Below, piece by piece: positions 12,647 through 50,589 of a DNA stretch of 64,000 nucleotides. The stretch spans positions 62,001-126,000 of the forward strand of contig JAABRD010000004.1 in the NCBI GenBank assembly GCA_011391085.1, in the 5' to 3' direction. The position numbers were made by a program, and so were the translations under genes. The DNA comes from Thiotrichaceae bacterium. Lineage in GTDB: Bacteria; Pseudomonadota; Gammaproteobacteria; Beggiatoales; Beggiatoaceae. Below the pieces are notes generated by a model. That model did not search any database and was not told the DNA's origin. It worked only from the letters and a program-made list of their open reading frames with translations. Every line of letters begins with the position of its first letter. Position 1 is the first letter of the stretch.

Positions 12647-12673
12647 GCAGGTGTTATGATGAGTTAAGCTGCC

Positions 12674-13076
12674 ATGCCATTAAGTTAAGGAAAACATCCC
12701 CCCGAAATTAAAATACAGATGGTCTAGAGGCTTTAGCCGGAGGGGGGTGGAACATAATTGAAATAGCGGGGCCCCGCCCCCGGCTAAAGCCTCAATGCCA
12801 TTAAGTTAAGGAATTAAAGTAGCAAAGAAATTAAAATAGCGGTGGACTAGAGGCTTTAGCCGGAGGCTGTGCCCCGCTAGTTAATTATGTTCTGCCCCCC
12901 TCCGGCTGAAGCCTCTAGTCCACCTATATTTTAATTTCGGGGGACTTTTTTCCTTAACTTAATGGCATTGCGGCTAAAGCCTCTAGTCCACCCGTATTTT
13001 AATTTCGGGACATAATTAAAATCGCGGTGCCCCGCACCCGGCTAGAAACTAAGTTTCTTTAAGAAACTTAGTTTCT
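12674..13076. repeat. Composite of nested R2 and R3 elements plus palindrome
   Basis: The 12647-13076 space holds several stacked repeat arms. R3 left ends (ATGCCATTAAGTTAAGG) lie at 12674 and 12795, and an R3 right end (CCTTAACTTAATGGCAT) lies near 12951-12967. Complete R2 pairs are at 12720-12793 and 12844-12922, and an orphan R2 right arm follows the R3 end. A perfect palindrome AGAAACTAAGTTTCTT... closes it at 13044-13076. No gene is visible. Confidence 0.75.
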
Positions 13077-13450: not shown

Positions 13451-13615
13451 ATGAATCCAGAAACCGTCACAACAACCCCTTCCATCCTCGGGGCATTCAA
13501 AGCATCTATGGTAGTCCATCCAATACTGTGGACCCTGGGTGGTGTCGCAGTTATCGGTGCAGTGGGCTATTTCATTTTCAGAAAGAAACCCGCAGAGGTT
13601 AAGGCAGCTGCCTAA
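13451..13615 (+). CDS. 54-residue single-pass membrane protein
   Basis: The ATG at 13451 has a strong AAAGGAG site 9 bp upstream. A longer frame starting at 13391 lacks one. One hydrophobic segment (WTLGGVAVIGAVGYFIF, residues ~28-44) is followed by RKK, so an N-out/C-in one-pass topology is predicted, with a short Ala/Lys tail. It precedes a P-type ATPase by 139 bp on the same strand. By analogy with KdpF or other small ATPase partners it may be an accessory or regulatory peptide; that is inference. I do not recognise a named family. Confidence 0.75.
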   Translation: MNPETVTTTPSILGAFKASMVVHPILWTLGGVAVIGAVGYFIFRKKPAEVKAAA

Positions 13616-13625
13616 CCTCAATTAA

Positions 13626-13656
13626 GGAACCGAGTTTTTTCTAAAAACTCGGTTTC
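13626..13656 (+). terminator. AAACCGAG hairpin between membrane peptide and ATPase
   Basis: A hairpin of the toxin-island family begins 11 bp after the small gene and ends in T-rich sequence. It could attenuate read-through and set a high peptide-to-ATPase ratio. Confidence 0.55.
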
Positions 13657-13754
13657 TTTTCGATTTATCCCTTTCAATATTATCTCAAAGTCGCCCACAA
13701 AATTTTCAATATTAGAATTAATTGGCATTTTTGTACTACATAATAGGCGTTTAA

Positions 13755-15821
13755 ATGTTCTTATTGGGTCTTGAAGTTGTATTCATCAGCTATTTCGGCG
13801 TCCGTATATACGAAAAATCTTCCGCAAAATTACTACCATCGACAGAATCCGTGACCACCGATGACCCACCCAATGAGTCGTTGTCGGTGATAGAACAATC
13901 ACGGTTGCTGAAAGGGACTCGTGAAAAAAATCTGCATTATCTCAAGATGAGTGGCCTTACCTTAGGGCTTTCCATTCTGACTCACCTTAGCCCCGCCTGG
14001 ATACCGATTACCTTAATAGGTTTTACCTATATAGCCTTTCCATATTTACGAGTGATTGAACACTCTTTGCTGAACAAGAAAAAAGTGGATGGTTATGTGT
14101 TATACGGTATTGCAGATTTTATGACGCTGGGGTTAGGCAGAATTGCTACCGCTTCCTTGGCAATCGGAACAGTTCATGCGGCCCATTTTGTGATTGCTAA
14201 CGCTGAAGAAAATTCAAAACAAAGTCTCGTCGATATATTCAACCAACAACCGCGCACCCTCTGGTTACTGAAAGATGGGGTAGAAATAGAAGTACCACTA
14301 GAACAAGTCACCATCGATGATATAGTGGTAGTCAACACTGGCGAAATGGTTCCCGTGGACGGCACCGTGGTCGCAGGGGTTGCAACCATCGATCAACACA
14401 TCTTGACCGGCGAGTTTCAACCGGCGGAAAAAACGGTGGGTGACATAGTGTTTGCCTCCACTTTGGTGCTGTCCGGACGTATTCAAGTACGAGTGACCCA
14501 ATCTGGGCACGAAACCACCGTGGCGAAAATCACCGACCTTCTCAACCATTCCATCGATTTTAAAACGAATACCCAACTCCAAGGTGAACAATGGGCTGAT
14601 AGTTGGAACCTACCGGTACTAGGTTTGGGATTTGCCGCTTTACCATTTTTGGGACCTGCCACAACCGTCGTGATTCTCAATGGCCATATTGCGCAAACCA
14701 TTCGTATTGTGGCACCGTTAAGTACACTGAATTATCTCACGATTGCTTCTCACAAAGGAATTTTGATTAAAGATGGACGAGTGTTAGAAGACTTGCCCAA
14801 TGTGGACGTTTTCTTATTTGATAAAACTGGTACGCTGACTAGCGACGAACCCACCGTGGGGCGCGTGTTGGTTTATCATCAAGACTACCGTGAACCGGAC
14901 ATTTTGAGATTGGCCGCGGCCGCCGAACGCAAACTCGCCCATCCCATGGCCCGCGCCATTGTCAATAAAGCTGAAGAACTGGGTTTGGCGTTGCCAGAGA
15001 TTGCCGATGCCCATTTCCAAATCGGTTATGGCGTCAGTGTGCGAATCGACGGTAACTTAATTCGAGTCGGCAGTTACCGGTTTATGCAACAAGAGGGAAT
15101 TGCGTTACCTGAACACTCGGCGGAGGAACTACAATATGCACACGAAGCTGGCCATTCACTGATTCTGGTAGCCCGGAATGAACATCTGATTGGCATCTTG
15201 GAAATGCACGCGACCGTGCGACCAGAAGTCGTCGCATTACTCGCCAGCCTGCGCCAGCGCGGTGCGAAAGTGTTGGCCATCGTGTCCGGTGACCATCAGC
15301 AACCTACCCAAAAATTGGCGGAACGCTTAGGCATGGATGACTATTTTTATAACGTCCTCCCGCAACACAAGGCTGACATTGTTGAACAACTCCAACAACG
15401 GGGACATACGGTATGTTTTATCGGTGATGGGGTCAACGATACTCTTGCCATGAAAAAAGCCAACATCTCGATTTCACTCAGTGGCGCCACTTCCATTGCC
15501 ACCGATACGGCCCAAATTGTTTTGATGGATGGTTCCTTGAAACATTTGCCAGAGTTGTTAGATATTGCCACTGAACTCAAGCGCAATTTGAATCGCGGTT
15601 GGCTTTTCAACATTGTCCCAGGTACGCTTACCATCGCCGGCGCCTTTCTCTGGCACTTCAGTATTATCACAGCCATTCTGCTTACCCAATCAGGGCTTGG
15701 GTTAGGAGTAGTCAACGCGATGTTGCCGTTACGCCGCTTGAATGAGGAACCTCCTTTATTGCCAAATCAGAACACTAACCTGTCATATCAGAAGAATGAG
15801 GAGAGAAGTGCGAATGAATAA
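13755..15821 (+). CDS. P1B-like P-type ATPase lacking the CPC transport motif
   Basis: This 688-aa integral membrane ATPase carries the full P-type core: actuator loop TGEFQPAEK, phosphorylation D356 in DKTGTLT, the P1B-type His-Pro in KLAHPMAR, and GDGVNDTLAMKK in the hinge. There is no N-terminal HMA or Cys-rich metal domain. The helix before the phosphorylation domain reads IRIVAPLSTLNYL, with A320-P321-L322 where heavy-metal pumps have CPC, SPC or TPC. The Pro is kept but both metal-binding side chains are missing. The substrate is therefore not predictable from known classes. It overlaps the downstream radical-SAM gene by 8 bp. Confidence 0.87.
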   Translation: MFLLGLEVVFISYFGVRIYEKSSAKLLPSTESVTTDDPPNESLSVIEQSRLLKGTREKNLHYLKMSGLTLGLSILTHLSPAWIPITLIGFTYIAFPYLRVIEHSLLNKKKVDGYVLYGIADFMTLGLGRIATASLAIGTVHAAHFVIANAEENSKQSLVDIFNQQPRTLWLLKDGVEIEVPLEQVTIDDIVVVNTGEMVPVDGTVVAGVATIDQHILTGEFQPAEKTVGDIVFASTLVLSGRIQVRVTQSGHETTVAKITDLLNHSIDFKTNTQLQGEQWADSWNLPVLGLGFAALPFLGPATTVVILNGHIAQTIRIVAPLSTLNYLTIASHKGILIKDGRVLEDLPNVDVFLFDKTGTLTSDEPTVGRVLVYHQDYREPDILRLAAAAERKLAHPMARAIVNKAEELGLALPEIADAHFQIGYGVSVRIDGNLIRVGSYRFMQQEGIALPEHSAEELQYAHEAGHSLILVARNEHLIGILEMHATVRPEVVALLASLRQRGAKVLAIVSGDHQQPTQKLAERLGMDDYFYNVLPQHKADIVEQLQQRGHTVCFIGDGVNDTLAMKKANISISLSGATSIATDTAQIVLMDGSLKHLPELLDIATELKRNLNRGWLFNIVPGTLTIAGAFLWHFSIITAILLTQSGLGLGVVNAMLPLRRLNEEPPLLPNQNTNLSYQKNEERSANE

Positions 15822-16845
15822 TAACCTTCAACCTAATCCAACCTATATCACCCTGAATACGATGGAAAAATTTGCCGGTCAACTGCGTTGGAAAGTAGGA
15901 CTGGGAACCCTTCCCTGTATTCGGACTCGTGTGGACAAGCGATGCACATTTTGCGGATTCAAAGATTTAGAAAATCCACTGCCAGCCGATGAAGTTGACA
16001 CCGTCTTTCAAAATCTCTTAAAACGTACGACGACAGACACGGTGAACAGATTGGAATTATACGTGTCTGGCAGTTTTTTTGACGATGTCGAAGTCTCCCC
16101 CAAGTCACGCCTGGCCATTTTACGCACCTTCAGTGACACTCAAATACCTGAAATTCTGATTGAATCGCGTCCAGAATTTATTCATGCCACCTATTTAAAT
16201 GCGTTGACCACTGTCGTAGAACCGGGCCGTGTAACAGTAGGCATCGGTGTCGAAACCATGGATGATAAGACTAGAAAACCCTTATTAAAAGGGACGACCA
16301 CCAAAAAAATTATTCAAAGCATTCGGTTAATAGCCGAGACAGGCATGAATTTTCAAGCCTACTTGCTGTTAAAACCTCCCCGTGTCAGAAGTGATCGGGA
16401 AGCCGTCCACGGTTTTATGAGAGATGTGCAGACCTTAATCGACGTGACGCAAGATCAAGCCTGTACTTTAACTATCGCAGTTCAACCAACCTTTGTCGCA
16501 CATAATACCGTTCTTGTACCAGATTTCGAACAAGGTCAGTTTCGACCTGTTTGGTTATACACGATCGCGCTGGTATTGCAGAAGTTGCAGGCCATGAAAG
16601 CCGAGAATCCACGACTTAGAATTATTTTAGGCAATGAAAATGACAATGTGGACGTGATCGCACTGCCGGCCAATTACACACACCCAACCGCATATCAGCC
16701 TTGTCCATGTAGCCCCCAAATACGCGAACATTTACAACACGCCAACGAATCAGAACAGGATTTGGAAAGAGTTCTTCACCAACTCTTGAAAACCTCTTGT
16801 GCGTGTCAATCACTTTGGCAAGCTGAAATGGAGGGCGTGTGGTAG
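15814..16845 (+). CDS. Radical-SAM enzyme, Elp3/RaSEA-like
   Basis: The ATG at 15814 has an AGGAG site 9 bp upstream inside the ATPase gene; the frame opens earlier at 15742. The cluster motif is CIRTRVDKRCTFCGF (C-x8-C-x2-C). Further blocks SGSFFD, ESRPEF, VGIGVET, AYLLLKPP, QPTFVAHNTVL and RPVWLY match by memory the archaeosine-synthase partner RaSEA (COG1244-type, Elp3-like). The C-terminal Cys pairs (CPC, CAC) fit a second metal site. RaSEA acts on lysine-preQ0 tRNA in archaea; what a bacterial homologue modifies is unknown. Translationally coupled to the ATPase. Confidence 0.8.
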   Translation: MNNNLQPNPTYITLNTMEKFAGQLRWKVGLGTLPCIRTRVDKRCTFCGFKDLENPLPADEVDTVFQNLLKRTTTDTVNRLELYVSGSFFDDVEVSPKSRLAILRTFSDTQIPEILIESRPEFIHATYLNALTTVVEPGRVTVGIGVETMDDKTRKPLLKGTTTKKIIQSIRLIAETGMNFQAYLLLKPPRVRSDREAVHGFMRDVQTLIDVTQDQACTLTIAVQPTFVAHNTVLVPDFEQGQFRPVWLYTIALVLQKLQAMKAENPRLRIILGNENDNVDVIALPANYTHPTAYQPCPCSPQIREHLQHANESEQDLERVLHQLLKTSCACQSLWQAEMEGVW

Positions 16846-49420: not shown

Positions 49421-50589
49421 TTAACCAATACTACTTCCTAACTCCGTCTCCGCCAAGGAATTGGCCATCATCACTTGAGTCAGCCAATTTTCTAACTGTT
49501 CCAGATTAGCCGTGGCCTCAATCCGATGCCTCACCGTTTCGGTAAATTCGGTAAATTTTAGTTGTAATTGCCGCAACAAGAGTTTCTTGGTTTGTTGTTG
49601 CATCCCTTGTTGCATCCCTTGCTGCATCCCTTGCTGCATCCCTTGCTGCATCCCTTGTTGCATCCCTTGCTGCATCCCTTGCTGCATCCCTTGCTGCATC
49701 CCTTGTTGCATTCCCTTTTGCAAGCCTTGCTGTAGCTGTTCGGCCAACAGCGTGTTGGTTATCGACAAGCGTCTTAAATCCTCTGGATAGGTTTGGAAAT
49801 AACGCTCGATATAGGGAATCACCGCTTCGTGTACTTCTACATCATGGGTTTGCATACGTTGAACCTCCCAAATTTTTTGCCAAATCGTTAAAGGATCAGC
49901 CGTTAGGCCAATCCTCAAGGTTAATAAGATATAGTCTAGCAGACCTTCCTTAAAACATAAAGCAATAAAATCCGCCAGTTTTTTCCCTCGTGCTAAGGGT
50001 AGCAGGGGATAATTGGCTGGTTTCAAGTCCAATTCGCTGGGATGAATCAGCCATTGGGCAATCCCAACCGTAGAGTGATAAATCCCATTATCGTCCGTGG
50101 GTTTGAAATGAAATTCCTCTTGTAACTTTAAAATTTTGTCAGGCCTGGTGACGCAAACTATCGTCAGAGTTCGCTGACTAGGTAATTGATTCAGATGGCT
50201 GTCTGACGATTCTGGGTCAGGGGTGTCATCGGGGTTTGAAGCATCCTCCGGGTCTGGTGTATCCTCCTCCGTAGTTTTCTTCTCTAGTACCGCACCCAAG
50301 CCCCACGCCCGCATCATAATTTTGTTATAATCCAGAAGGTGAGTGGGTCATGAATGCCTTTAAATTCCAGTGCATTGAGGCGTTTGAAATAGGCGAAAAT
50401 GGTGGGTTGTAAACATTGCCGTTGTTCGGCCGTTGGACAACTGACGACTAAATCAATCGCCCGCCCACGAAAGAAGACTTCGCGTTGGGTTTCGACGGTT
50501 AGTCCCAACCCTTCAAATAATTTACGGTAGAAATCTTTGGCCGTATCATCAAACGGTTCGGCGGTGATATGGGGTACATTGTTATCCAT
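49421..50589 (-). pseudogene. PD-(D/E)XK nuclease-like gene split by a frameshift
   Basis: The first frame (50589 to 50314) starts MDNNVPHITAEPFDD and carries GRAIDLVV and LEFKGIHDPLTF, a restriction-endonuclease-like D...E-x-K set. The second (50317 to 49421) continues IMMRAWGLG. Reading through the junction with a one-base shift gives DPLTF then DYNKIMMRAWGLG, which looks like the ancestral join, so this is probably one gene with a frameshift near 50320-50326. The tail contains ~10 MQQG repeats (12-bp units) and a helical end. Sequencing error or programmed shift cannot be excluded. Confidence 0.65.
49595..49714. repeat. 12-bp tandem repeat encoding MQQG units
   Basis: Nine GCATCCCTTGYT units plus one variant in the plus strand, encoding (MQQG)n on the minus strand. 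Units are multiples of three, so copy changes alter length, not frame. Confidence 0.85.

Follow-up and report, generated by a model that had tools for sequence, protein, structure and literature searches.

The metal motif in membrane helix M4 defines the P1B class of P-type ATPases. In our tree the nearest described class to the ATPase reported here is P1B-6, for which a His-Asn (HN) pair in transmembrane helix 6 (M6) is a published feature (PMC9374683) and which has been called biochemically unexamined (PMC4932525). A further point of comparison is the PacL1-CtpC zinc efflux platform of mycobacteria, in which a P1B ATPase is accompanied by a small one-helix protein (PMC9374683). We compared these systems with an ATPase encoded in a 64,000-nucleotide stretch of DNA (the window) and with the family of ATPases to which it belongs. 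The window ATPase has the overall fold, the His-Pro motif and the TIGR01525 assignment in common with CopA, CadA and ZntA, whereas CPC is missing from the family throughout and the HMA domain from the window ATPase. With P1B-6 it has in common the catalytic motifs and a basic residue after the M4 motif, but the Ser-Cys of M4 and the HN of M6 are lost in the family, HMA_2 is absent from the window ATPase, and the extra N-terminal helix and the operon context differ. As in the PacL1-CtpC platform, a gene for a small one-helix protein lies nearby; CtpC, however, retains CPC, and the small protein of the window matches no Pfam family, DUF1490 included.

The reading frame of the window ATPase is uninterrupted and intact (Table 1), and Pfam finds the actuator and hydrolase domains. 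Its score against TIGR01525, the NCBIfam model for heavy-metal P1B ATPases, is 386 bits (cut-off 346), while it falls below the cut-offs of TIGR01497 (P1A KdpB; 131 against 528 bits) and TIGR01657 (P5B polyamine ATPases; 72 against 618 bits). Neither an HMA domain nor the N-terminal HMA_2 domain, which is present in a P1B-6-like relative (L028), was detected by Pfam in the window ATPase. The original prediction that all catalytic motifs are intact, that His-Pro points to P1B and that no HMA domain exists is thus borne out, with TGE, DKTGT, His-Pro and GDGxND kept in 62/62 family members. Divergence from four orthologues is dominated by third codon positions (0.29, 0.14 and 0.60 per position), and selection on the gene is purifying. 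The protein is probably catalytically competent, which would imply a phosphorylation cycle and pumping.

The AlphaFold model of the window ATPase (pLDDT 87.5, pTM 0.81) displays the P1B membrane layout of MA, MB and M1-M6 and was aligned to CopA over residues 43-662. The top structural matches are CopA (7r0g; VIA Z 30.4, rmsd 7.1 over 609) and CadA (7qbz; Z 30.0), and the folds of KdpB and Pma1 match more weakly. In the model M4 is broken at residues 310-312, beside the metal-binding position of P1B pumps, and the additional helix at the N-terminus is predicted to be a membrane helix.

Table 1. Features of the ATPase gene and its immediate surroundings, with positions in the window.
Feature	Position	Strand	Remarks
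P-type ATPase, P1B-derived, CPC-less	13755..15821	+	688 aa; coordinates include stop
Extra N-terminal hydrophobic helix, residues 2-26, beyond the eight P1B membrane helices (predicted)	13758..13832	+	AlphaFold secondary structure, alignment columns
TGE, actuator domain, residues 218-220	14406..14414	+	conserved 62/62
I312-A313-Q314, true CPC position in M4	14688..14696	+	spacing, alignments; Cys 0/62
R317, basic, M4	14703..14705	+	R/K in 38/62; K in P1B-6-like relatives
A320-P321-L322, earlier-flagged motif, equivalent to TP after CPC	14712..14720	+	MAFFT, phmmer alignments
DKTGT phosphorylation motif, residues 356-360	14820..14834	+	conserved 62/62
His-Pro, nucleotide domain, H396-P397	14940..14945	+	conserved 62/62
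GDGVND hinge motif, residues 557-562	15423..15440	+	GDGxND conserved 62/62
T644-Q645, M6, at HN position of P1B-6-like relatives	15684..15689	+	alignment
Radical SAM protein	15814..16845	+	ATG overlaps ATPase stop by 8 bases
Small one-helix protein, candidate accessory of the ATPase family	13451..13615	+	54 aa; distribution of relatives
Terminator-like hairpin, between small gene and ATPase	13624..13658	+	consensus scan; sites not above shuffles

It had been claimed that Ala-Pro-Leu (A320-P321-L322) replaces CPC. These residues do exist, but the register was off by eight residues, and CPC corresponds to I312-A313-Q314. The same genome encodes two CPC ATPases (L006, L007) whose first Cys precedes the Asp of DKTGT by 44 residues, against only 36 for A320. 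MAFFT alignment of eight sequences placed CPC over I312-A313-Q314 and the T-P of CPCALGLATP over A320-P321, and a gap-free phmmer alignment with Legionella CopA (3rfu) set CPC over the same three residues. A phmmer alignment with Archaeoglobus CopA dissents, with A-P over C-P, at the price of compensating gaps. Spacing to DKTGT and alignment together rule out APL as the CPC equivalent. Since the M4 motif contains neither Cys nor a conserved His in either register, the broad observation that a metal ligand is missing stands. Among family members the most frequent residues at 320-322 are A/G, P/S and L/I.

The ancestry of the family, for which a tree had been proposed, was assessed with a quick maximum-likelihood tree of 84 ATPases, in which long branches are present and support is given as SH-aLRT without bootstrap. 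The family forms one clade (100%), its sister is a group of cyanobacterial and Chloroflexi ATPases (99%), and the next to join is a P1B-6-like clade (96%). An ATPase-like sequence (L199_1) sits on a long branch that is not part of the family. Members of the P1B-6-like clade have D-Y/F-S-C-A-L-K in M4 and HN in M6, with HMA_2 in those checked; because of the HN feature alone, we take this clade as probably P1B-6. The sister ATPases (L042, L049, L237, L041), which carry MTGIR in M4, likewise lack Cys there and have I-R in common with the family. They differ from it in that His-Asn of M6 is kept in 2/4 and an Asp starts the M4 motif in 4/4; one of them (L042) has a weak HMA_2 match, and with the family profile they score far below family members. 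Along the tree the M4 site runs as a series from CPC through YSC-ALK and MTG-IR to IAQ-TIR, with HN lost in the family.

Across the alignment of 62 family members, Cys at positions 312-314 and HN in M6 are each found in 0/62, and 21/62 lack Cys throughout the membrane columns. In the window ATPase I312-A313-Q314 stand in place of the Ser-Cys of the P1B-6-like M4, and no CPx-type M4 motif with Cys, Ser or His is found. These family-wide losses at M4 and M6, together with the missing HMA domain of the window ATPase, support the original suggestion of a cargo other than a soft metal. They also speak against continued export of a transition metal or metal-ligand complex by way of a rearranged site, possibly in metallophore or cofactor chemistry; we consider this improbable, even though the family descends from metal pumps, the window ATPase has copper and cadmium pumps as its closest structures, and NRPS operons can make metallophores.

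Residues 314 and 315 rank as the 15th and 12th most variable among the 163 membrane positions that were ranked. As to charged membrane residues, which had been proposed for inspection in a predicted structure, the sequence alignment gives an acidic residue in M1 in 48/62, a basic residue at 317 of M4 in 38/62, and both in 37/62, the M1 acid shifting its position between subclades. Conserved catalysis, the break in M4, the loss of Cys from M4, the variability at 314-315 and the M1 and M4 charges argue for an active pump whose site has been changed and diversified. The charges would also suit an ion pump in which the M1 acid and polar residues of M4 and M6 serve a non-soft inorganic cargo (proton, K+, Na+, Mg2+ or similar), its operon context being incidental or energetic. 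An Asp/Arg pair in the membrane is likewise employed by proton pumps, and the weaker KdpB and Pma1 matches fit as well. A fixed ion site, however, is hard to reconcile with an M1 acid whose position varies by subclade and with the highly variable 314-315, and a single ion would hardly account for the many diverged copies in a genome. We regard such an ion pump as unlikely in itself, yet as the serious, main rival to a pump for organic metabolites.

Giant sulfur bacteria have an expanded set of family members, and elsewhere the family is patchy. All 43 genomes of the order that were searched gave P-type ATPase matches and most contained family members, with up to 25 matches per genome, a count that at the threshold used includes some ordinary P1B pumps. 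The host is assigned to Thiotrichaceae by NCBI and, since two of these 43 genomes are Thioploca, lies within the giant sulfur bacteria. Among about 397 other sampled Pseudomonadota genomes only 5 gave a strong match. An Acidobacteria MAG (G452, L233-L236) has six family ATPases, one adjoining an amidinotransferase-like gene and one a methyltransferase gene, which suggests horizontal transfer together with gene clusters. Some family copies have in-frame stops or are fragmentary, as expected of birth-and-death evolution. The host genome holds five copies, the other four being 41-47% identical to the window ATPase. Close homologues that all carry CPC would have pointed to a local mutation in a dying gene; CPC occurs in 0/62 relatives, and the four intact, CPC-less paralogues of the same genome together with the purifying selection rule out such a mutation.

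At 61 loci the neighbours of family copies are strikingly often enzymes of small-molecule biosynthesis. They include AMP-binding enzymes, thioesterases, methyltransferases, aminotransferases, epimerases, TauD, sulfotransferases, a carbamoyltransferase, amidinotransferase-like proteins, saccharopine dehydrogenase and alanine dehydrogenase. A same-strand gene lies within 50 bp in 34/72 copies, and 16 have an overlapping gene. In the first six genomes an NRPS/PKS carrier or condensation domain is found no more than 5 kb away from 9/34 copies, where 0.9 were expected; since these genomes had been chosen with the neighbours already seen, ten more were then tested, for carriers alone. There the replication was weak (4/57 within 5 kb of a carrier against 1.3 expected, P=0.04). 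Both sets pooled give 13/91 against 2.2 expected (P=3.8e-7), and 10/84 against 2.0 (P=3.6e-5) when the genome likeliest to have been chosen for its clusters (G011) is left out. Other P-type ATPases of the same six genomes, read from coordinates, stand at 1/18 against the 9/34 of the family (P=0.07). The linkage to NRPS/PKS is real and concerns a minority of copies; with about 14% that close, it is ruled out as a rule for every copy. Another bacterial family offers a case of direct coupling between NRPS and ATPase (L220, L221). Certain ATPases and enzymes are paired repeatedly in different genera; the ATPases of these pairs are 62-87% identical, where the median is 42%, and such common neighbours may be ordinary synteny.

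The company of these enzymes also bears on whether the ATPases are flippases for a lipid or a lipid-like product. In P4 and P5 ATPases the same engine drives the movement of lipids and polyamines, and some of the partner synthases could yield lipidic products, but many neighbours are of amino-acid type (epimerase, saccharopine dehydrogenase, alanine dehydrogenase, aminotransferases), and we give this idea little weight. Two other kinds of neighbourhood were observed. In G011 an 874-aa family ATPase frame (L188, 8971-11595) apparently stands among genes of NADH dehydrogenase (nuo) type, on a reading of the sequence only. Band_7/SPFH and DUF697-type proteins are encoded close to family ATPases in two genomes that do not belong to the family of the host (L218, 3762-5627; L219, 6083-13460), which brings to mind what has been discussed about flotillins and metal pumps (PMC9374683).

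At the window locus itself the radical SAM gene is probably co-transcribed with the ATPase as an operon partner, given the 8-base overlap of its start with the ATPase stop. Its product scores 131 bits against TIGR01210 (RaSEA), under the cut-off of 212. No relative of this protein was found in 39 related genomes searched, which rules it out as a conserved partner of the ATPase; orthologues of the window ATPase adjoin other genes, and the radical SAM gene is possibly a recent acquisition. Relatives of the small one-helix protein upstream occur in 15/25 genomes with the ATPase family, 0/5 without it and 0/15 others (P=0.005, phylogeny ignored), and adjoin an ATPase at 4/18 places (P=5.5e-5, a rough estimate). 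That a one-helix protein tracks the family recalls the metal-pump scaffold PacL1 (PMC9374683) and, along with a transport site that is not recognisable, would fit an ATPase acting as a sensor, scaffold or regulator without cargo. Every catalytic motif is fully conserved, however, and the M4 break is kept, which speaks for a full transport cycle; the sensor or regulatory ATPase of the original prediction gained no positive support, since the catalytic residues are all kept, and we consider such a role quite improbable. Between ilvD and the small gene lies a cluster of palindromic repeats (12664-13009) around GGCTAAAGCCTCTAGTCCACC, with 96-nt inverted arms, which looks mobile or of REP type. Farther along the window (49421-50317, minus strand) a protein with about ten QGMQ repeats near its C-terminal end is encoded.

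We tentatively prefer the explanation that the ATPase is a pump of P1B-6 descent which has exchanged its metal cargo for small organic metabolites. A metal pump of the P1B-6 branch would have lost its metal site while keeping the catalytic engine, so that the phosphorylation cycle and pumping would be retained. The cargo would be a small organic metabolite, probably polar or charged, made or modified by the adjoining enzymes, and each operon would have its own paralogue. Judging from the sequence, the new pocket may lie where M4 is broken midway (310-312) and include polar residues such as D121 (M1), H141 (M2), N309, H311, Q314 and R317 (M4) and Q645 (M6). For the window copy, the overlapping radical SAM enzyme would be the cargo-making partner. 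Transport, its direction, the organic cargo and the pairing with operons are what we infer from the descent of the family, its intact catalytic motifs, its loss of metal ligands, its expansion in one lineage and its operon linkage. Rather more doubtful is the wider proposal that the family evolved from metal pumps into exporters of diverse organic metabolites, each paralogue fitted to what its own operon makes, and so consists of primary P-type pumps for bacterial natural products. Weak replication, the location of most copies away from NRPS/PKS genes and a radical SAM protein without relatives in the 39 genomes searched count against an organic cargo, and we are aware of no P1B-derived pump for an organic molecule.

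No report of the family was found in the literature searched, which covers few subscription journals, nor any relevant paper there on P-type ATPases that serve NRPS/PKS clusters or have multiplied in Beggiatoa or Thioploca. The automatic label of heavy metal translocating ATPase is probably wrong for the genes of this family. An expanded family that has the engine and lacks the metal site shows that the P1B scaffold can be re-purposed. It presents a single transport pocket in dozens of natural versions, many of which come with a partner enzyme as a clue to what is carried. Should the cargo be organic, these ATPases would be natural-product exporters of a new class and would provide a handle on the cryptic gene clusters of giant sulfur bacteria.
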